Positions 1,749-24,627 of a DNA stretch of 25,824 nucleotides are shown here, one piece after another. A program made the translations under genes and the position numbers. This stretch comes from a virus, in the IMG/VR virus record IMGVR_UViG_3300031521_000324, positions 1-25,824 of that record. The stretch is one strand, 5' to 3'. Numbering within the stretch: position 1 is the first letter of the stretch; each line of letters starts with the position of its first letter. The notes under the pieces are model-generated. The model was not told the DNA's origin, did no database searches, and was given only the letters and a program-made list of their open reading frames with translations.

Positions 1749-4016
1749 TTAACTGTGTATTATTTTAACATTTTGGAATAGTGGTCGCAATACTTCATCT
1801 ATTTGTTTTCTTAGATTTGTTATATCTGAGTCATTTCTAACTGATGGATTGTTTATAACAATATTAATGTTTGAACCTCCACCCATTCTACCTGACTGTT
1901 CTGCAGGTATTACCATCTCTCCACCGTGTGCGATGATCGGTACTGCAGTTCCCCTTGGTGCATCTACGAATCCACCTGACTCGTGTTTTGCTACTGATGG
2001 ATAGCTTATTGTTGAAAGTGATGATGATGTTGATGATTTTGTTTGACTGATAGCAGATGCTAGTGCTTGAAATAATTTTATCTCTGCATTGACTTCATCT
2101 GTTGTTTGTTTCAATCTTGCATCTGATAATTTTGTATAGTAAACATTTGCATCATCCATAATTTTATTTATGGCATCTACTTTTTGTTGATACAATGTTT
2201 GCTCCTGAGCTGCTTCATCTTGTTTTGATTTTAGTTCTTTCTGTAACTGTGCCATTCTCTTGGTGTAATCAGCTGCATCAAGGACTGCTCTGGCATTGTA
2301 ATCTTCTATTGTTCTCTGTAGGTCTGTTTCCTTAGCTCTACGTCTTGCTTCCTCAATTGCAACGGCATTGGCATCTCTGAATGCTTGTGCTGAATCATAG
2401 TTTGCTTGCTCTGCTGCGAGTTGGTCTGCTAGTGTTTTGTATTGGTCTTGTCCCACTGCAGTTGCCATCTGTTTTTTGATGTCTGCTATCTTTGTCTCTG
2501 ATGCAACCACAGCCTCTGCAGTTGATTTTGTATTATCAGTTTGTGTTTGTGAATAACTAGAAACTAAATCAGAAATACTATTCTTTGTAGATTCAATTGA
2601 TTCATTTATTGACTTCATTTTATCTCTGAATGAGTCGGCAAGTTCAGCAAGAGTTGTCTTACCAGAAGTAGACATCTTTTTGTATTCATCAGTTAACCCA
2701 GAGATAGCTTCCTTGTGTTTCTTTTGTGATTCTGTAAGTGCTACCGCTGATGCCTTTGCTGTTTCTTGTGCTTTTGCTACCTTAAGAGTGGCTTGAATAT
2801 TATTCTCCATCTCCTTAGTCATATTATCGTAGTCGTCTCTTGTCTTGGTCATTGTCTGACCAATTCCCTCCCAGCTTTTCTGTACATCTCCACCACTTGA
2901 AATAAGTTTATCTGAACCCTCTTGTAATTGGTCCACCATTCCGTATGTTAAGTTTTGAGTTGCTTCAGTAAATTGACTCATCTTTCCATCTCCGAAAAGG
3001 TTATCGAATACTGAAGAAAAACCAGACACCATACCTGTTGCTGCAGTTGCTACTGTTGTGACTCCTTGTTTTATGACATTGTAACCTACACCTAGTGTCT
3101 TACCGACAGTTGCTACTGCTTGCCCTAGTCCAACAATAAAATTAGTTACTGAGTATACTTCATATCCCAATTCATGCATCTTTTCTTTTGTTCCAAGTGC
3201 TCCTGTCGCTGCTCCACTTAACTGTCCGATTAATGTATACAATGACGCTTGCATTGCTCCACCTATTACTTCTTGAATGTCATCTATTTTATTTTTTAAT
3301 TGTGTTATTTTACCACCAAATGTCTCAGCGGCATTTGCAGCTGATCCACCGAATTCTGTAGACAGTTCTTTTAAGATATATGTTTGTGCTTGTAGTGATT
3401 GCCCTGTGTTTACGAGATTTTTTATTAGATTTACTTGATCTTCGTTAAAACTAACACCGACACGTCTTAGTGCTGTGACCCCTAGTATTGGATCCTGGAG
3501 TGCCTTACCTAGTTGTATCGCTGCACTCTTTGTATCTTCTCCAAGAGCTGTAGCCATGTCTAGGACTGTCTGTGTTGCCTGTGGAAATATATCCTTACCT
3601 ATTTTTGTAAATGTAAGGAGCATATTCTCGGCCGACAATACTTGTTCATCACTGAATGTTGTTGATTCTTGCAATGCTTTTGAAAGATTTAGTGCTGCAT
3701 CTGCAGTTACACCTGCGGCTTGACCAGTTGATTGAAGTACTGCATACAACTGTGCTTGAACTCTCTGTGATTCTTCTGCCGCTTTCATACTATCAACAAT
3801 AAATTGTTTTGCTGCTTCGAATCCTTTCTGTAATATGCCAAAAGCCACCTGGCTACCCAGCATGGCCTTGAACATATCCCCGAACGATTGTGACGACTTC
3901 TGTGTTGCTTGTGTTATGGTATTACCCATCTGTGTCGTAGAATCACTGATTTTCTTCAGTGTTGCACTTGCTTCATCAATTGCTTTTACTACGATTTTTA
4001 ATTGGGAGTCATCCAT
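1749..4016 (-). CDS. Tail tape measure protein
   Basis: 755 aa. It sets tail length and fills the tail tube before DNA ejection. Evidence: position immediately after the G/GT chaperones, a long Ala/Gln/Lys-rich helical body with coiled-coil stretches (about 1-60 and 400-650), and a hydrophobic Gly/Ala-rich central segment (about 260-350) of the kind found in tape measures. Residues ~65-250 resemble the PhageMin_Tail-type core (EESQRVQAQLYAVL, QLGKALQDPILGVTALRRVG). Near the C-terminus GGFVDAPRGTAVPIIAHGGE and VIPA match the common tape-measure tail motif. At the usual ~0.15 nm per residue the tail would be roughly 110 nm; that is an estimate. Start ATG at 4016, no SD. Confidence 0.93.
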   Translation of the reverse strand: MDDSQLKIVVKAIDEASATLKKISDSTTQMGNTITQATQKSSQSFGDMFKAMLGSQVAFGILQKGFEAAKQFIVDSMKAAEESQRVQAQLYAVLQSTGQAAGVTADAALNLSKALQESTTFSDEQVLSAENMLLTFTKIGKDIFPQATQTVLDMATALGEDTKSAAIQLGKALQDPILGVTALRRVGVSFNEDQVNLIKNLVNTGQSLQAQTYILKELSTEFGGSAANAAETFGGKITQLKNKIDDIQEVIGGAMQASLYTLIGQLSGAATGALGTKEKMHELGYEVYSVTNFIVGLGQAVATVGKTLGVGYNVIKQGVTTVATAATGMVSGFSSVFDNLFGDGKMSQFTEATQNLTYGMVDQLQEGSDKLISSGGDVQKSWEGIGQTMTKTRDDYDNMTKEMENNIQATLKVAKAQETAKASAVALTESQKKHKEAISGLTDEYKKMSTSGKTTLAELADSFRDKMKSINESIESTKNSISDLVSSYSQTQTDNTKSTAEAVVASETKIADIKKQMATAVGQDQYKTLADQLAAEQANYDSAQAFRDANAVAIEEARRRAKETDLQRTIEDYNARAVLDAADYTKRMAQLQKELKSKQDEAAQEQTLYQQKVDAINKIMDDANVYYTKLSDARLKQTTDEVNAEIKLFQALASAISQTKSSTSSSLSTISYPSVAKHESGGFVDAPRGTAVPIIAHGGEMVIPAEQSGRMGGGSNINIVINNPSVRNDSDITNLRKQIDEVLRPLFQNVKIIHS

Positions 4017-6281: not shown

Positions 6282-6740
6282 TTATTTTTGCATTGCTTTA
6301 TAAAAGTATGTGTGAAATATTTTAACGACTATCTGTTTCTGGTGTTCTTCTAGCTTCATCATCACACGTCTTGGTATCTTACTTCTCGGTTTGTTACTCT
6401 GGTGGTATTTGAAATAATCAATCCTATTGCTTACTTCTGCCATATCTGGCTTTACTAGGGTTGTGAACCCTGCTCTCATTTGCCCTGTAGCTTGCAAAAT
6501 GCCCTTATTACCATACTTCTTGGCCTTTTGTTGTGCATATGCCCTACTGAGTGGCGACCAACTCTCTCCGATGGCTCCTCCTTGTGTTTCAAACACATCA
6601 TTTTGGAATATCTTTTTAAGTGTATCTGCTGTCTCCTTAAATGCCGGGGTCCAATCTTTTACTCTCTCTGATAATAATAATAGGTTTCTACTTAGTTGGA
6701 CATCTCCCTCTATTGAGAATGTGAGATATTTTCCTGCCAT
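6282..6740 (-). CDS. HK97 gp10 / Mu gpG-like tail completion protein
   Basis: 152 aa from the ATG at 6740. A longer frame from 6785 would overlap the connector gene by 41 nt; the internal start sits 4 nt after that gene's TAA and fits local spacing. The core ESWSPLSRAYAQQKAKKYGN, then GILQATGQM and FTTLV, is characteristic of the phage virion morphogenesis family of Mu gpG (W-x-PLS, TGxL/M). C-terminal basic residues (KPRSKIPRR, then VMMKLEEHQKQIV) also match that family. It probably acts at the head-tail joint or in tail completion. Confidence 0.8.
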   Translation of the reverse strand: MAGKYLTFSIEGDVQLSRNLLLLSERVKDWTPAFKETADTLKKIFQNDVFETQGGAIGESWSPLSRAYAQQKAKKYGNKGILQATGQMRAGFTTLVKPDMAEVSNRIDYFKYHQSNKPRSKIPRRVMMKLEEHQKQIVVKIFHTYFYKAMQK

Positions 6741-9305: not shown

Positions 9306-10226
9306 CTACACACAGGCCTTGATAAGGTATCCTGCAAGTGCTGCAATAACTTTTTGAACATAGTTATCTTTACCAACACGAACATATGTTCCCTCACGGT
9401 CTTGGTCATACCATCTCTTAACTTCACGTACTCCGTATGTGAATGTTAATGCAAGAGTAAGCATTTTAATGTTTACCTTTGGAGCAATGTACGCAACGAT
9501 TGCGTCTGTTCCCCAGATATAACTTAGTGAGTCTGTTTGTCCCTCTGCTGCAGTGTTTGAACCTGCTTCCCCTACTAGGATTGTATCTACTTGGAATACA
9601 CGTGCTAGTAATTCAGCTGTGACTACTCCTAGTTGTGAGTATTTTACACGTTCGATTATTGCTGGGTGGTCACATAATGTATCAAATACTTGCTTTCCAA
9701 GAATAAGAGTGTTTGGTTTCTTGAATGTGTTTTGATGAATTGTAATTCTAGCTGTTCTGATGTCTCCGATTGGATCACTGTTTGAGTAATCACTCCATTG
9801 TGATGTACCTGCAAGTGTTGTGTTTTGAGTAAGGTTTGATGTACTTCTCAAAATTGTTGCAAGGTTACTTTCACGGTCTAACAACATCTTTTCTGTCAAT
9901 GTTTCTGTTTCATCGATTAATGGATTCAAAGCTGCATCTGCTTGGTCTTGGATTTCATCTGCTACGAAACCTTTTAGGGCGTGATCATCACAGGCGAACA
10001 CTCCTGTTGGTGCTACTCCGAAGTCAATTTCATTTGCTCCTGAACCTGCTGCACGGTTTGTCTTGTCTATGCGTAGATTACTCTTGTCATAGATGTAATA
10101 CTTACCTGTCTGTTTTGATACCTTTACCATTGGTGCGATAAGGTCAGCGATAAATACATCGTTAGTGTATTTAATTGAAACATTTCCTAATGCTGGGTCG
10201 ACTACGACGTCTTGTTGTACTAACAT
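9306..10226 (-). CDS. Major capsid protein
   Basis: 306 aa, HK97-fold type by size and context (protease/scaffold, decoration, capsid). Recognisable parts: an extended N-terminus with FIADLIAPMVKVSKQTGKYY, an acidic helical region (LIDETETLTEKMLLDRESN), the GKQVFDTLCDHPAIIERVKY segment typical of capsid P-domain helices, IWGTDAIVAYIAP, and the C-terminal TYGVREVKRWYDQDREGTYV then VRVGKDNYVQKV, a familiar capsid ending. No delta-domain precursor is visible; scaffold is probably supplied by the C-terminal part of the upstream protease. Start ATG at 10226, A/T-only leader. Confidence 0.9.
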   Translation of the reverse strand: MLVQQDVVVDPALGNVSIKYTNDVFIADLIAPMVKVSKQTGKYYIYDKSNLRIDKTNRAAGSGANEIDFGVAPTGVFACDDHALKGFVADEIQDQADAALNPLIDETETLTEKMLLDRESNLATILRSTSNLTQNTTLAGTSQWSDYSNSDPIGDIRTARITIHQNTFKKPNTLILGKQVFDTLCDHPAIIERVKYSQLGVVTAELLARVFQVDTILVGEAGSNTAAEGQTDSLSYIWGTDAIVAYIAPKVNIKMLTLALTFTYGVREVKRWYDQDREGTYVRVGKDNYVQKVIAALAGYLIKACV

Positions 10227-16910: not shown

Positions 16911-17927
16911 TTACTTATACCCCTTATCCCATTTGAATCCGTTACCAAAATGTCCCCATCGTGCTGTCTCTTCGTACTGTGGTTTGTCTAGTTCTAAAAA
17001 CTCTATGATTCCTTGTGGTGTTAGGTCATATCCACTTACGATCTGTGACTCTAATACTCCATCTTCATTTTTAAATGTCATCTCTGTTGTTACCATTACT
17101 GGTTCTGCTTTCCCTATTGCATATGCTATTTTTACTAGACAAGTTAATGAGTCTGGGTATCTATCTAGCATATCTACTGCAATATATCTTGCCATGTATG
17201 CTGCACTTCGATCTACCTTTGTTGCATCCTTTCCACTGAATGCTCCACCTCCTATTGGTATGTTTGGACCGTAGTTGTCTACCATTAGCTTTCTTCCTGT
17301 GAGTCCTGTGTCTGCATCGAATCCTCCTTGGTTCCAGTCACCTGCAGGGTTGCAGTAGATATGGAATTGTTTTGCTTGTGGGCATCCAACTGATGATAAC
17401 CATCCACCATCTACTGTTCTTATTAAATCTAGCAATTCTTCTTTTGATACATTTTGAAAACTAGTTACTATTGTTTCTATTTCTCCATCATCATTCAATG
17501 TTATCTGTGTTTTTCCATCGTATCCATGTTTTTCAAAAATATATTTATTGAGTGATCTTGCTAGGTATTCTTCCTGTGGTATCAATGCAGAGTTTCCTCT
17601 ACAAGCATAACCTATCATTATCCCCTGGTCTCCAGCTCCACCATCGTCTACACCGTTTGCTATCTCTATTGATTGTTTTACAATTCTTACTTCTACAAAT
17701 AATTCTTCTCCTGCTATTCGATGAGCAATTTCTATAAGATGATCATAATTCAATTCACCATTAATTGTAACCTCCCCCATTATTACTATTTTCCCATGCC
17801 CTCCCATTGTCTCTACCGCTACTCTTGCGTGACTATCTTGTTTTAAACAGTAATCTAATATCGCATCACTTATCTGATCACACATTTTATCTGGGTGTCT
17901 TGGACTTACAAATTCTGCAGTTTTCAT
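16911..17927 (-). CDS. metK: S-adenosylmethionine synthetase
   Basis: 338 aa, shorter than the usual ~380-400. It makes S-adenosylmethionine from methionine and ATP. Conserved parts: RHPDK (His11, Asp13, Lys14; the usual Gly before His is Arg), DQISDAILD, RVAVET (Glu39), GAGDQGIMIGYA (Asp100), GLTGRKLMVDNYG, and GGGAFSGKDATKVDRSAAYM with the catalytic lysines. The C-terminal region ends RWGHFGNGFKWDK, matching the usual GHFG-x-F-W-x-K end. Catalytic residues appear complete, so it should be active; the shortening comes from smaller loops. It follows the ParB-methylase by 1 nt, so it probably feeds the phage methylases. Confidence 0.95.
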   Translation of the reverse strand: MKTAEFVSPRHPDKMCDQISDAILDYCLKQDSHARVAVETMGGHGKIVIMGEVTINGELNYDHLIEIAHRIAGEELFVEVRIVKQSIEIANGVDDGGAGDQGIMIGYACRGNSALIPQEEYLARSLNKYIFEKHGYDGKTQITLNDDGEIETIVTSFQNVSKEELLDLIRTVDGGWLSSVGCPQAKQFHIYCNPAGDWNQGGFDADTGLTGRKLMVDNYGPNIPIGGGAFSGKDATKVDRSAAYMARYIAVDMLDRYPDSLTCLVKIAYAIGKAEPVMVTTEMTFKNEDGVLESQIVSGYDLTPQGIIEFLELDKPQYEETARWGHFGNGFKWDKGYK

Positions 17928-17928
17928 A

Positions 17929-19191
17929 TTATATTTTTATTGCTTTTTTACCTGTTAATAATTCGAACCTTTTTATAATCACATCCACGTACTTCGGGTC
18001 TATCTCCATGGTGTAGTTCGTACGGTTTAATTGTTCGCACGCTACCATACACGATCCACTACCTCCGAAGAAATCTATCACTACATCATCTCTTTTACTT
18101 GAGTTCCTTATTGCAATTGATACGAGTTTTATTGGTTTCTGTGTTGGGTGGTCATATTTCATTTCCCGGTGTAATCTCCACACAGTTGAGTCGCCAAGTT
18201 CTTCTTTCTCGATGTTCTTTTTTACAAACTTTAGTAATTCTTCATCTGTCATTTCTTCACTCCACTCTGTGTATTGTTTTCTATCTCCATAAAATGGCAT
18301 TGATGTGTCTTTCTGGTGGCAGTAAAGTATCGGCTCATGCTTCCATCTATAATCTCCCCATCCCATGCTTGCTACTTTCTTTACCCAGATGATCTGATTT
18401 CTTACTTCATATCCATTTGAGTTCAGTGCATCTTCAAACTCTCTATGTGTTCTTGATGCATAGCAACAGTATAATGGTGCATCTGATTTTGCTGCGTGTT
18501 TTAATCCTGCAAACCATGATGTTAACATTGTTCTGAAGTCTGCCTCTGCCATGTTATCATTCTTGATTGTATTGGATGTATTTTTTCCTCTACCTGAATA
18601 TGCAACATTATAAGGTGGATCTACCCATATCATGTCTGCTTGTACCCCCCCCATCAGTTTATCTACATCTGCGGTCTTACTGCAGTCTCCACACATCAAT
18701 CTATGCTTCCCTAACTGATATACTTCTCCGTACTTCGATGTTGGTGTGACTATCTTTTCTGCTTCTTTGTCTCCATCGAAATCATCATCGTCTGCTTTTT
18801 TAAATATCTTATCTAGGTCTCGGCTTTCAAATCCTACATCTGCTAGCATTGTTTCATCAAAGTCGGCCAACAATTCAAAGTCCCATTCTCCTGTGTTCTT
18901 ATTGGACCTCACATTGTATTCGTTAAATTCTTCTTTTGTAAGTTTTCTGTTTGGTACTCGCACATCTATTTCTTCAGTACCTCTTCCTATTAGTTGCATT
19001 ATCTTCATTCTTTGATGGCCTGCAACAAGTACATTGTCTGTGTCTACTACTGGTATTTCTACGATATTGAACTTCTCAATCGATGCTTTCAACCGTTTTA
19101 TTTGGTCGTCAGTGATCTTCCTTGGGTTCTTCTCGAAAGGTATCAAATCATTAACCTTTCGCTTTTCTGTTCTCCATTCTAGTTTAATCAT
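17929..19191 (-). CDS. ParB-domain beta-class DNA methyltransferase
   Basis: 420 aa. Residues ~8-100 are a ParB-like domain (LIPFEKNPRKITDDQIKRLK, VLVAGHQRMK), an arrangement common in phage methylases. The catalytic part begins near 155: GEVYQLGKHRLMCGDC, motif IV DPPYNVAYSG (191-200), and after a long target-recognition stretch motif I FFGGSGSCMVACEQ (374-385). Motif IV before motif I marks the beta class that makes N6-methyladenine or N4-methylcytosine; DPPY favours adenine. Target sequence cannot be read. A G8 run encodes residues 180-183 just upstream of motif IV. It follows the 103-aa gene by 6 nt. Confidence 0.92.
   Translation of the reverse strand: MIKLEWRTEKRKVNDLIPFEKNPRKITDDQIKRLKASIEKFNIVEIPVVDTDNVLVAGHQRMKIMQLIGRGTEEIDVRVPNRKLTKEEFNEYNVRSNKNTGEWDFELLADFDETMLADVGFESRDLDKIFKKADDDDFDGDKEAEKIVTPTSKYGEVYQLGKHRLMCGDCSKTADVDKLMGGVQADMIWVDPPYNVAYSGRGKNTSNTIKNDNMAEADFRTMLTSWFAGLKHAAKSDAPLYCCYASRTHREFEDALNSNGYEVRNQIIWVKKVASMGWGDYRWKHEPILYCHQKDTSMPFYGDRKQYTEWSEEMTDEELLKFVKKNIEKEELGDSTVWRLHREMKYDHPTQKPIKLVSIAIRNSSKRDDVVIDFFGGSGSCMVACEQLNRTNYTMEIDPKYVDVIIKRFELLTGKKAIKI
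18645..18652 (-). repeat. G8 homopolymer in ParB-methyltransferase gene
   Basis: Eight uninterrupted G residues on the coding strand (ATG GGG GGG GTA, residues 180-183). With seven Gs the frame reads GGG GGG TAC AAG CAG ACA TGA; with nine it reads GGT ACA AGC AGA CAT GAT ATG GGT AGA TCC ACC TTA TAA. Both changes end translation before or at the DPPY codons, so eight is the ON length. Confidence 0.9.
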
Positions 19192-19197
19192 TTGTTT

Positions 19198-19509
19198 TTA
19201 TTTATTATTATACTGATATAAATCTTCACTAAATAAAGTATTACTTCTGTAACCATCTTTATCAACTGATTTTATTCCAGCTTCTTCTTGTAATTGACGA
19301 CCCTCTTCTCTTGTTACAAACCTACCCCTTGATGTTGTAAACCCTTGCTCCATTTTACCGTCTCCAATATAAAAATCGTGTAATTCCTTACCTGTCATCT
19401 CCCATCCTATTTCATCTCTCATTGCCTGCATTGCGTGGCCGTGTCTATGACCATTCCACACATAACCATTCACTCTAACCGCTGCACATATTACAAATTC
19501 TTTTTCCAT
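19198..19509 (-). CDS. Conserved-looking phage protein of unknown function
   Basis: 103 aa between the two DNA methylase genes, with gaps of 6 and 3 nt, so clearly in the same unit. Contains FVICAAVRVNGYVWNGHRHG, a helix around GHAMQAMRDEIGWEM, and TTSRGRFVTREEGRQLQEEA. A similar order (AAVR...G.RH, then TSRGRFV.REE) occurs in phage proteins of unknown function, as far as I recall; I cannot name the family. Possible roles include regulating the methylases or antirestriction, but nothing in the sequence proves either. Confidence 0.75.
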   Translation of the reverse strand: MEKEFVICAAVRVNGYVWNGHRHGHAMQAMRDEIGWEMTGKELHDFYIGDGKMEQGFTTSRGRFVTREEGRQLQEEAGIKSVDKDGYRSNTLFSEDLYQYNNK

Positions 19510-19512
19510 AAA

Positions 19513-20778
19513 TTATAAATATAATCTTTTAACTACTTCTGCGACCACGTTACTCACGATTCCATTTCCTAAGCATTTATATCTCTGGGTATCTGACAAT
19601 CCCTCTGTCCATCCGTCTGGGTATGCCATTAATCTCTCGCATTCGAGTGGTGTCAATCTTCTTATTCTAGTTTTGCTATGTAGCAATTGAGCAGTTTTAC
19701 CAGTAGTTGTTCCACAAGAAGTTCCAAGTGTTCCAGTTTCAGTTTCTGATTGTTTGCCATTATAAGGATTTCTTATAAATACTCCGACTACTGGTGGCAT
19801 TGTTGATATATCAGTTGCACTTGTTCTTCTTGCACTTAGACAAGGACTTATCGGCTCGCTTCTTATTCTTAATCCCTCATCATTTCTATAATCTGCAACT
19901 TGTACAACCTTTGGATCTTTGTAATCTCTAGCTAGTAGTGTTCTACTTAGTTCTCTTCTTTTATTGGAAATCGATTGAACCCTACTTGCTTCATCAATTT
20001 GTTTGTCTGTTCTTGCGATAGGAAATACTTTTCGTCTGGGGATTCCTCCAATATGTCCGACAATGAACACTCTTTCCCTATTCTGGGGGACTCCGAAATT
20101 CTTTGCGTTAAGCACTTGCCATTCCACGCAATACCCCAGTTCTGTAAGCGTATTGATGATGGTTGCGAAAGTTCTTCCATTGTCGTGAGAAAGCAATCCT
20201 TTGACGTTTTCCAGTATAAAGTTTTGTGGTTGTTTTTCTTTGATAATCCTAGCACAATCAAAGAAGAGTGTTCCTCTGGTGTCGTCAAATCCCCCTCTTT
20301 TTCCAGCAATACTAAAAGCTTGGCAAGGGAATCCTCCGACAAACAAGTCGAAGTCTGGCAATTCTTTTTCGTTGATTTTTGTGATGTCTCCATAGTTTTT
20401 GTTGTTAAAATGTTTTTGATAAATTTGGTCTGAGTATTTGTTGATCTCACTGTATCCAACACAAGTAAATTGTTGTACTCCCATTGATTCTTGCTTATTG
20501 TTGGAACTATTTTGTGAAGCCCCCCCCTGTTGTACCCCCTTGGTAGTTGATAAATCAGTGGCACATTTCCTCCCCCCATTCCGAATGATGCTTGAACCGT
20601 TGGTGCTATTCCTTGAGTTAGATATAACACATTTCTTTGATTGCTTTTTGGGTCTAGTGGTATCGCCATTATTATCATTGTTTTCTTCTTCATATGCTTT
20701 ATTGATACCAATCTCAAATCCACCGATACCAGTAAATGTTGAGAAGTATCTTATTTGCTTATTCATTATTTTAGTCAT
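19513..20778 (-). CDS. dcm: Cytosine-C5 DNA methyltransferase with internal insertion
   Basis: 421 aa. Motif I STFTGIGGFE (13-22), motif IV GGFPCQAFSIAGKR with catalytic Cys152, motif VI LENVKG (189-194), motif VIII PQNRERVFIVG (231-241), a target-recognition region (about 265-370: DYKDPKVVQVADYRNDEGL, PISPCLSARRTSATD), and motifs IX-X RRLTPLECERLMAYP and YKCLGNGIV. Between motif I and CVGYSEINKY (106-115) there are ~73 extra Asn/Ser/Lys/Gln-rich residues (about 31-103); family members normally have about 10-20. The inserted DNA holds runs G6, G5 and G8. The ATG overlaps the stop of the metallopeptidase gene; Met5 is another possible start. Probably active in this phase. Confidence 0.9.
   Translation of the reverse strand: MTKIMNKQIRYFSTFTGIGGFEIGINKAYEEENNDNNGDTTRPKKQSKKCVISNSRNSTNGSSIIRNGGRKCATDLSTTKGVQQGGASQNSSNNKQESMGVQQFTCVGYSEINKYSDQIYQKHFNNKNYGDITKINEKELPDFDLFVGGFPCQAFSIAGKRGGFDDTRGTLFFDCARIIKEKQPQNFILENVKGLLSHDNGRTFATIINTLTELGYCVEWQVLNAKNFGVPQNRERVFIVGHIGGIPRRKVFPIARTDKQIDEASRVQSISNKRRELSRTLLARDYKDPKVVQVADYRNDEGLRIRSEPISPCLSARRTSATDISTMPPVVGVFIRNPYNGKQSETETGTLGTSCGTTTGKTAQLLHSKTRIRRLTPLECERLMAYPDGWTEGLSDTQRYKCLGNGIVSNVVAEVVKRLYL
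20460..20654 (-). other. Out-of-frame target-recognition-like cassette inside dcm
   Basis: The inserted DNA, read in a different minus-strand frame from the methylase, gives QRNVLYLTQGIAPTVQASFG then MGGGNVPLI, followed by LPRGYNRGGLHKIVPTISKN and WEYNNLLV. The G-I-x-PT plus x-GG-N-x-PLI unit, and the PRG-x-N-x-GG ... PTI ... W-x-x-NN-LL unit, look like the tail of a C5-methylase target-recognition domain, which normally lies just before motif IX. In the methylase frame the same DNA encodes low-complexity sequence. The G8 run lies inside it. It has no obvious start or partner domain, so I call it an embedded remnant or cassette rather than a gene. Confidence 0.55.
20520..20527 (-). repeat. 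G8 homopolymer in cytosine methyltransferase gene
   Basis: Eight Gs on the coding strand (CAG GGG GGG GCT, residues 84-87), with a G6 at 20572-20577 and a G5 nearby. One G fewer moves ribosomes into the frame of the recognition-like cassette, which ends at 19947 without methylase motifs. One G more gives TAG within eight codons. Eight is therefore the only length that gives a complete methylase. Confidence 0.88.
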
Positions 20779-23455: not shown

Positions 23456-23661
23456 CTTATTTTTTGTTGCAATCGACCGTCATTAAAATTCTTTAATTTG
23501 TATTTCTTTGTACACTCTTGGCAGTGTGATGATCCGTGTACTCTGGCATTAATTTTGCATTTCTTACATGGTATTGGTTTATCTACTATCGTTGTCTGTA
23601 GTATATCTTTACCATCTTCATGTCTCATTTTCATTCCTACTAGTTTAAGGTTTGATTTCAT
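23437..23661 (-). CDS. Small zinc-knuckle protein, unknown
   Basis: 74 aa. CKKC (32-35) and HCQEC (46-50) form a likely zinc site, followed by a basic C-terminal stretch (KKYKLKNFNDGRLQQKI). Its ATG overlaps the TGA of the preceding gene, so the pair is coupled. The basic character suggests nucleic-acid binding. No family. Confidence 0.65.
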   Translation of the reverse strand: MKSNLKLVGMKMRHEDGKDILQTTIVDKPIPCKKCKINARVHGSSHCQECTKKYKLKNFNDGRLQQKISKQINN

Positions 23662-23957
23662 ATTTGTTTCCCTTCAGTTAATTTTAATATCTCATTTCCG
23701 AACATATCTGGTATCGCCTTTGGTGGTACCTGTTGATCACATATCGACATCCCCCCCATTGGGTTTGGTACTGCTTTTCTTACAAAATCTATGAAATGTG
23801 GTTCTATTGCCACAACTGATGCCGGGTGCACGATCACTTGTTTCAACTGTACCAACATCTCATCTGCATTATCTTTCAACTTTGCAAGGTCTGACTCATC
23901 AATCTGGTACTCCTTGCCGTTCATCATTGATATTTTATACCGTCTTTCTTTTTGCAT
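23658..23957 (-). CDS. Unknown early protein carrying a G7 tract
   Basis: 99 aa from ATG 23957, right after the initiator stop (a longer frame from 24023 would overlap it). Contains RYKISMMNGKEYQIDESDLA (a short strand-turn-helix start), a helical KDNADEMLVQLKQV, then HPASVVAIEPHFIDFVRKAV. The codons for NPMGG (near residue 67) include seven consecutive Gs at 23751-23757. Function unknown; it sits between the replication initiator and small zinc proteins. Confidence 0.65.
   Translation of the reverse strand: MQKERRYKISMMNGKEYQIDESDLAKLKDNADEMLVQLKQVIVHPASVVAIEPHFIDFVRKAVPNPMGGMSICDQQVPPKAIPDMFGNEILKLTEGKQI
23751..23757 (-). repeat. G7 homopolymer in unknown early gene
   Basis: Seven Gs on the coding strand, in CCA ATG GGG GGG ATG. 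This is the third-longest G run I noticed in the window. Indels would alter the last third of the 99-aa protein. Confidence 0.85.
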
Positions 23958-23958
23958 A

Positions 23959-24627
23959 TTATACAATTCTCTTTTTAGGTTTATTATTAATTTCGACTTT
24001 TTTAAATTGATCCTTTTTTGCAAACCATGTAACTAATCGTCTATCTACCTGGAATGTTTCTTGTTTATGCCATCTCATCTTTTTGCCTGTGCTATTGAGT
24101 TCAGTCCAGTATCTTTCAAATTTCTGTATCTCATCCCATATAACAGCTTTCTCTGCTCTTGGGTATTTTTCTTTTAGTCCACATAAGAACTCTCTCATCT
24201 TCTTACCCTCTTCAGTTACTTCATCTGTTTCTTTTTTATTTCTAAGATCATTTATTCCTTTGAAAAAGTTTTCTGTTATATCTGCTGGTGTATCTTGTTG
24301 TGTTTCATTTGGTGCATCTTTGTATGACATTCCATCATTGAGTAGTGTATAGATATTATGTTCTCCGAGTTTTCTTTCTACTTCAATAAAATGTCTTTTT
24401 TCTAACAGCAAAATAGCACGAATTACCGTGCTTCTTCCCATATGTAATTTATCTTGAAGTGTATCAATTCCAGGGTATGCCTGTTGTGTTTGATTATCAG
24501 CATAGGCCGCAATTCCGCAGTACACTTTGTACATCTTTTCATCAACTAGTGGATTAAACAAAAAGTTTTTTGTTGTCCATACCCAGTCTTGTTGTCGCAA
24601 ATCTCGAACTTCAAATGTTTGGCTCAT
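23959..24627 (-). CDS. Winged-helix replication initiator candidate
   Basis: 222 aa. Residues ~28-95 form a winged helix: DEKMYKVYCGIAAYADNQ, YPGIDTLQDKLHMGRSTVIR, AILLLEKRHFIEVERK, the layout of phage and plasmid replication proteins of the helix-turn-helix 36/DnaD-like kind. The C-terminal half (ERYWTELNSTGKKMRWHKQE, FQVDRRLVTWFAKKD) resembles a DnaD/O-type helical domain that recruits helicase. It is the first gene after the control region with promoter and DnaA-like boxes, as expected for an initiator gene. Leader without SD. Confidence 0.7.
   Translation of the reverse strand: MSQTFEVRDLRQQDWVWTTKNFLFNPLVDEKMYKVYCGIAAYADNQTQQAYPGIDTLQDKLHMGRSTVIRAILLLEKRHFIEVERKLGEHNIYTLLNDGMSYKDAPNETQQDTPADITENFFKGINDLRNKKETDEVTEEGKKMREFLCGLKEKYPRAEKAVIWDEIQKFERYWTELNSTGKKMRWHKQETFQVDRRLVTWFAKKDQFKKVEINNKPKKRIV

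Follow-up and report, generated by a model that had tools for sequence, protein, structure and literature searches.

Phase variation of DNA methylation is a recognised trait of bacteria, and poly-G tracts are among the sequences that drive it, as in the type III methyltransferases of Helicobacter pylori with G9 tracts (PMC12003011) and a type IIG enzyme of Campylobacter jejuni (PMC4889913). Here we describe a comparable arrangement in a virus. The window analysed, 25,824 nucleotides of IMG/VR record IMGVR_UViG_3300031521_000324, is a 25.8-kb linear fragment of a tailed-virus genome, in which two DNA methylase genes each contain a run of eight Gs (G8). As in the bacterial poly-G methylases, homopolymer length would switch the enzyme ON or OFF by frameshift; whereas the bacterial systems are chromosomal restriction-modification genes, the main subject here is a ParB-methylase fusion that lies beside terminase genes and occurs in many unrelated phages. 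Overall, the G8 of this ParB-methylase is very probably a slipped-strand (poly-G) contingency locus of a phage DNA methylase. Poly-G switching of phage-encoded ParB-methylases was not found in searches of open-access papers.

Phage methylation has known benefits and costs. Orphan methylases of lactococcal 936-type phages, located in the packaging module among other places, guard phage DNA from restriction, and their Dam-type mark makes methylated DNA sensitive to DpnI while unmethylated DNA is sensitive to DpnII (PMC4190342). Given this trade-off, being able to turn the mark on and off again would benefit a phage that encounters hosts of either kind. The passages of that report considered here contain no phase variation of the 936-type methylases, unlike the system proposed for the window. 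As a different use, a prophage methylase may control host genes (PamA, as cited in PMC13076061).

The ParB-methylase and its tract comprise the following features:

17929..19191, minus strand: ParB-like and N6/N4 DNA methylase fusion of 420 residues (PF01555 N6_N4_Mtase, 5.6e-28 at residues 186-406)
18645..18652, minus strand: G8 tract 1, ATG GGG GGG GTA encoding M-G-G-V, current length ON by frame analysis and relatives
18610..18621, minus strand: DPPY catalytic motif, invariant in the homologue alignment and lost with a tract of 7 or 9

The gene matches phrog_498 'DNA methyltransferase' at 1e-121 over residues 7-419 and the ParB-like phrog_620 at residues 7-169, and it has the composition of phrog_498-type fusions, an N-terminal ParB-like domain joined to an N6/N4 methylase with DPPY. 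With seven Gs it would read ...LMGGYKQT-stop, and with nine ...LMGGGTSRHDMGRSTL-stop; DPPY is lost in both, and the translated frames agree with the initial annotation, which had translation ending before or at this motif at either length. The plus strand shows C8 at 18645-18652 and 20520-20527, equivalent to G8 on the coding (minus) strand of both methylase genes, so that the earlier count of exactly eight Gs in each holds. In each gene, a change in homopolymer length would truncate the enzyme. Dinucleotide-shuffled versions of the window give 0.10 expected G8 or C8 runs, with two runs in 1 of 100 shuffles. GGG makes up just 10% of the Gly codons of the window's genes, in which 4 of 49 Gly-Gly pairs are spelled GGGGGG (about 0.5 expected), and no G run of six or more lies on the non-coding strand of the window.

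To survey the tract 1 site, viral contigs and 84,980 bacterial and archaeal species genomes were scanned, blind to frame, for at least seven Gs placed 4-34 bases before DPPYNV codons, and the frames on either side were assigned by tblastn against a homologue panel. This gave at least 116 viral and 35 genome sites, at least 151 in all; G-tract phage methylases, which the initial annotation had taken to be rare, are instead widespread in phages. Tract lengths range from 7 to 18 among the matches listed, a scope that applies to the frame, pair and viral counts that follow. The 151 sites comprise 83 ON, 59 OFF and 9 with undecided frames (86 ON and 59 OFF of 154 sites once the close relatives L003-L005 are included). 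Among the OFF alleles, 52 are followed by at least 900 bases; every one of them has open frames to either side of the tract and keeps the C-terminal motifs, so that these OFF alleles are disrupted at the tract only and are not decaying.

Near-identical phages differ at this position. In L131 and L208, a stretch of 10,036 bp is 99.0% identical, with the tract as the sole indel (G10 ON versus G11 OFF), and the tract is again the sole indel in the 2,853 bp shared by L225 (G9 OFF) and L195 (G10 ON). A third pair, L152 and L204, aligns over 8,747 bp at 99.8% with two indels, one of which is the tract (G10/G8). Unequal lengths were seen in 12 pairs whose flanks are at least 93% identical. As judged from these alignments, the pairwise differences are the pattern expected from slipped-strand mispairing. 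Natural ON and OFF length variants were found among relatives of the tract 1 site; the tract in the second gene, tract 2, has no counterpart in close relatives.

The tract is also retained across larger distances. L003-L005 and L044 carry the same ParB-methylase at about 62% protein identity, and L003-L005 keep neighbouring phage genes of the window as well, the terminase at 68%. All four have an in-frame G9 at the tract 1 position, encoding T-G-G-G-M or R-G-G-A and not M-G-G-V; the run has been retained while the encoded residues changed. Comparison of related genomes, which the initial annotation had suggested, strongly supports its idea for tract 1, with the site kept, lengths variable and near-identical pairs differing. 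In a further homologue, L085, a G9 lies elsewhere in the methylase half (622-630) with frames broken there, and is an independent tract that is likewise frame-shifted. DNA-level near-match searches in isolated phages yielded no further copies. A ParB-like gene in L007 (6280-6830) stops right after LMGGEK, at the tract site, with no methylase half; we rejected it as an OFF relative, since it is a truncation and not a length variant.

The balance of states differs between collections. Viral contigs have 76 ON to 32 OFF alleles, microbial genomes 7 to 27 (Fisher p = 6e-7; 4e-6 once near-identical flanks are clustered). The viral ON fraction exceeds the one third expected under drift (p = 7e-15; 1e-10 clustered), and the genome fraction does not differ from one third (p = 0.15). 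Three OFF copies that were checked, in Limosilactobacillus frumenti (G7 in DSM 13145), L. urinaemulieris (G9) and Desulfotomaculum copahuensis, adjoin terminase genes, which identifies them as prophages. The simplest reading of these sequence counts is that ON is selected in the replicating virus while selection is relaxed or opposite in the lysogen; we offer it as a hypothesis, because hosts and sampling are not the same in the two collections and proviruses are among the IMG/VR records. Together, the viral ON excess and the genome OFF excess give a testable prediction on lytic versus lysogenic selection.

The second tract lies in a C5 methylase gene with an unusual internal organisation:

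19513..20778, minus strand: C5 cytosine DNA methylase of 421 residues (PF00145, 1.8e-80; TIGR00675 dcm, 1e-88)
20320..20328, minus strand: PCQ catalytic motif, invariant in the homologue alignment
20470..20685, minus strand: insert, about 71 residues long, that separates motif I from the CVGYSEI segment in the alignment
20520..20527, minus strand: G8 tract 2, within the loop between motifs I and II, current length ON by frame analysis
20572..20577, minus strand: G6 run within the insert, from the run search
19947..20693, minus strand: nested +1-frame open reading frame (ORF) of 248 residues from an ATG at 20693, ending SLSDILEESPDEKYFLSQEQ (phrog_16143, 1.4e-26)
20457..20648, minus strand: +1-frame target-recognition modules overprinted on the insert (tblastn)

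The enzyme has the Dcm-type order of motif I, PCQ, ENV, QxRxR and RxLTPxE. With nine Gs it would end GGGFTK-stop, within eight codons as first annotated, and with seven it would enter the +1 frame until a stop at 19947. That a frame change follows was borne out, but the frame entered, described earlier as free of catalytic motifs, is a conserved overlapping frame with recognition modules. A length change at tract 2 would, from these translations, abolish the C5 enzyme, and any such change breaks two frames because the tract sits in a doubly coding stretch. The insert also contains the G6 run, which the initial annotation did not list. Loop residues 43-98 are predicted to be disordered between confidently modelled flanks, for which reason the enzyme should tolerate the insert; in frame 0, tblastn found no homologue of the insert in the phage collection, and with the predicted disorder this led us to reject it as a genuine domain. 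A one-off misassembly was rejected because many relatives have a loop there and recognition modules in the same +1 frame, and a donor cassette because there are no notable direct repeats between the insert and the resident recognition region.

Tracts in second methylase genes recur. The 116 listed tract-bearing contigs (1.0 Mb) contain 105 runs of eight or more Gs at the site and 14 elsewhere, and 5 of these 14 fall in other methylase genes, in four lineages. L129 and its near-duplicate L197 have a C5 methylase with an in-frame G15 (ON), L240 has one with G9 and a broken frame (OFF), L172 has a G8 in a C5-like gene (21 bits against a Pfam cut-off of 22), and L169 has a G8 in an N6/N4 methylase. 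By this comparison, the window's pair of tract-bearing methylases is one instance of a recurring arrangement. The initial proposal of phase-variable methylation is strongly supported by comparison for the ParB-methylase and is plausible only for the C5 gene, whose tract is shared by no close relative. Other G runs were seen in C5 methylases. That of L325 contains a G12 at 3769, its halves in different frames (OFF-like), and that of L014 has four runs of 8, 9, 7 and 8 Gs at 6315, 6586, 6772 and 6953, the last two in the recognition region with broken frames. In L200, whose ParB-methylase bears the tract as well, a G13 at 9602 lies in the stretch encoding the C-terminal part of a CI-like repressor; this lysogeny repressor is possibly phase-variable.

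The overlapping +1 frame is under selection as a coding frame, although its product is putative. The +1 peptide matches in-frame target-recognition domains (TRDs) of Streptococcus phage C5 methylases at about 48-50% identity (tblastn, E 3e-10). In Streptococcus phage MM1 the corresponding ORF carries a methyltransferase annotation, with 'beta subunit' in one record. Loops at the insert position occur in 36 relatives, many matching recognition modules in the same +1 frame, such as that of L006 (54%, E 3e-17). Across the catalytic core, the +1 frame is stop-free in 27 of 33 relatives, compared with 1.0 expected under synonymous shuffling, and the +2 frame is open in none of the 33. In the best-matching 40 loop pairs, which share sequences so that the counts are not independent, differences number 1188 at the third +1-codon position against 629 and 494 at the others. 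The +1-frame ATG often stands at a fixed spot within AYE codons, GGAGG precedes it in some loci, and the C-terminal end reads SLSDILEExxDEKYFLS. AlphaFold models the +1 product at a predicted local distance difference test score (pLDDT) of 46 with only a C-terminal helix confident, and on this basis it was rejected as a well-folded protein. The overlapping +1 frame was also observed in the relatives L006, L007 and L280-L355. In L012 (5446-6100) and L013, the C5 loop has an HNH-type endonuclease-like ORF in the third reading frame, called by eye from zinc-finger-like CPKC and HKRQDGYK motifs.

This organisation differs from described C5 enzymes. In the multispecific C5 methylases of Bacillus phages, recognition regions are built in frame from modules of about 40 residues in the variable region; the window enzyme shares the modular design, but one of its module sets lies out of frame near the N-terminus. 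The second polypeptide of M.EcoHK31I is encoded in an overlapping frame, and the nested +1 ORF of the window likewise overlaps the C5 gene. In M.EcoHK31I, a two-polypeptide C5 methylase, motif IX comes from the small polypeptide and the TRD from the large one (PMC3404938). By contrast, frame 0 of the window's C5 gene holds motifs I-X, including motif IX (RRLTPLECERL), together with a recognition region of its own, extra modules being provided by the +1 frame.

Several other explanations of the tracts can be weighed against slipped-strand switching. The runs could be a by-product of coding: the site frequently encodes M-G-G, L-M-G-G often precedes DPPY, ATG GGG GGG alone gives seven Gs, and GGG forms some 10-15% of Gly codons in these genes. 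Coding cannot explain why 59 of 142 assigned sites are out of frame, however, and it sits poorly with a tract that persists despite residue change, with lengths that leap from at most five to nine in an unbiased viral homologue set, and with near-identical phages that differ at the tract only. Because more than 40% of assigned sites are out of frame, a pure coding constraint was rejected for tract 1, and we consider a by-product origin very unlikely. Least credible of all is the view that OFF alleles reflect mistakes in sequencing or assembly, or prophage genes that are dead. In its favour, homopolymers are prone to error, many loci come from metagenome assemblies and host genomes are mostly OFF; yet every one of the 52 checkable OFF genes is intact on both sides, and the tract is the sole indel over 10.0 kb in L131/L208 and 2.9 kb in L225/L195. 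OFF alleles also occur in cultured isolates, L257 and L264 (recorded coverage about 320x) being G8 ON and G9 OFF, and errors would not yield opposite ON:OFF ratios in two collections.

Slippage might instead occur in the RNA polymerase or ribosome, each allele then yielding a fixed mixture of full and truncated product with no genetic on/off switch. Long G runs can be slippery, and the overlapping +1 frame of the C5 gene is an obvious frameshifting partner, but length changes in DNA are frequent between close relatives and the strong viral ON excess indicates that genomic length matters; we regard this as unlikely, if less so than a coding by-product. For tract 2 the choice is much closer. A disordered loop overprinted with a recognition module may simply have its Gly-Gly spelled GGG GGG, at a fixed length, and such an incidental origin is a serious contender that we rate slightly short of even. 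The related C5 methylases of L006 and L007 lack the tract and the loop differs among relatives, whereas the Streptococcus phage Gly-Gly codons there are not GGG, a length change would destroy the enzyme, tracts in the ParB-methylase and in a C5 methylase occur together in other phages (G15 ON and G9 OFF in the C5 genes), and the G12 of L325 accompanies a broken frame.

Some observations weigh against a contingency locus, or limit how far the idea extends. In the unbiased viral homologue set, where GGG is 13% of Gly codons, only 3 of 72 sites carry nine Gs, the remaining 69 carrying at most five; in two bacterial families, 5 of 42 sites have at least six. The tract is a minority trait among homologues, and L045, at 56% identity, has none. 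G8 is a short tract. The length variation described here is between phages and contigs, and some metagenome indels may be assembly error. To the differences between collections noted above is added that the viral side of the ON/OFF contrast consists of matches listed, not of all viral sites. For tract 2, no G run of six or more occurs in the related C5 methylases of L006 and L007, and the corresponding Gly-Gly of the Streptococcus homologue is GGC GGA.

Comparison of sequences nevertheless shows the fixed position of the tract, its length polymorphism between near-identical phages, the intactness of frame-broken alleles and the viral ON excess, and tract 1 of this individual phage is best explained as a putative switch. 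Gain or loss of one or two Gs at replication would put the DPPY-bearing half out of frame (OFF), and a reverse slip, which we infer to be possible within one lineage, would restore it (ON); the window holds an ON length. The phage population would then be a mixture with and without an adenine (or N4-cytosine) mark, which may hedge between hosts whose restriction enzymes act on unmethylated DNA and hosts in which methylated DNA is the target. Alternatively, the mark may need to be off during lysogeny, or the prophage methylase may, by analogy with PamA, control host genes. The G8 of the C5 gene would probably act as a second, independent switch, allowing up to four methylation states fed by the phage S-adenosylmethionine (SAM) synthetase. 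More tentatively, and with slightly more doubt than confidence, poly-G switching of ParB-methylases could be a strategy of phages in general, with ON favoured while the virus is free or replicating and OFF released or selected in the prophage, and with some phages, this one included, having two switches and spare +1 recognition modules in the C5 gene. If phages own such switches, phage DNA methylation would be a heritable coin-flip, with effects on host range across restriction barriers, prophage spread and methylation-based virome profiling.

The remaining features concern the gene neighbourhood:

16911..17927, minus strand: S-adenosylmethionine synthetase, supplying the methyl donor (PF00438, PF02772 and PF02773 above cut-off)
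19198..19509, minus strand: small ORF separating the two methylases (phrog_839, 2.5e-11)

Terminase, portal, capsid and tail genes of the window all lie on the minus strand, and a search of the phage collection gave no match to the terminase. Among the subset of ORFs scanned near the methylases, none was a restriction endonuclease. A small gene at 23658-24023 contains a G7 at 23751-23757 that the initial annotation did not list, and its L003 homologue is without the G7-bearing stretch. The region between the terminase and the early genes comprises the SAM synthetase, the ParB-methylase, the small ORF and the C5 methylase. The synthetase scores 269 bits (5e-80) against TIGR01034 metK, under the 309-bit cut-off of that model, and its three S-AdoMet synthetase domains confirm the early identification of this neighbour of the methylases.

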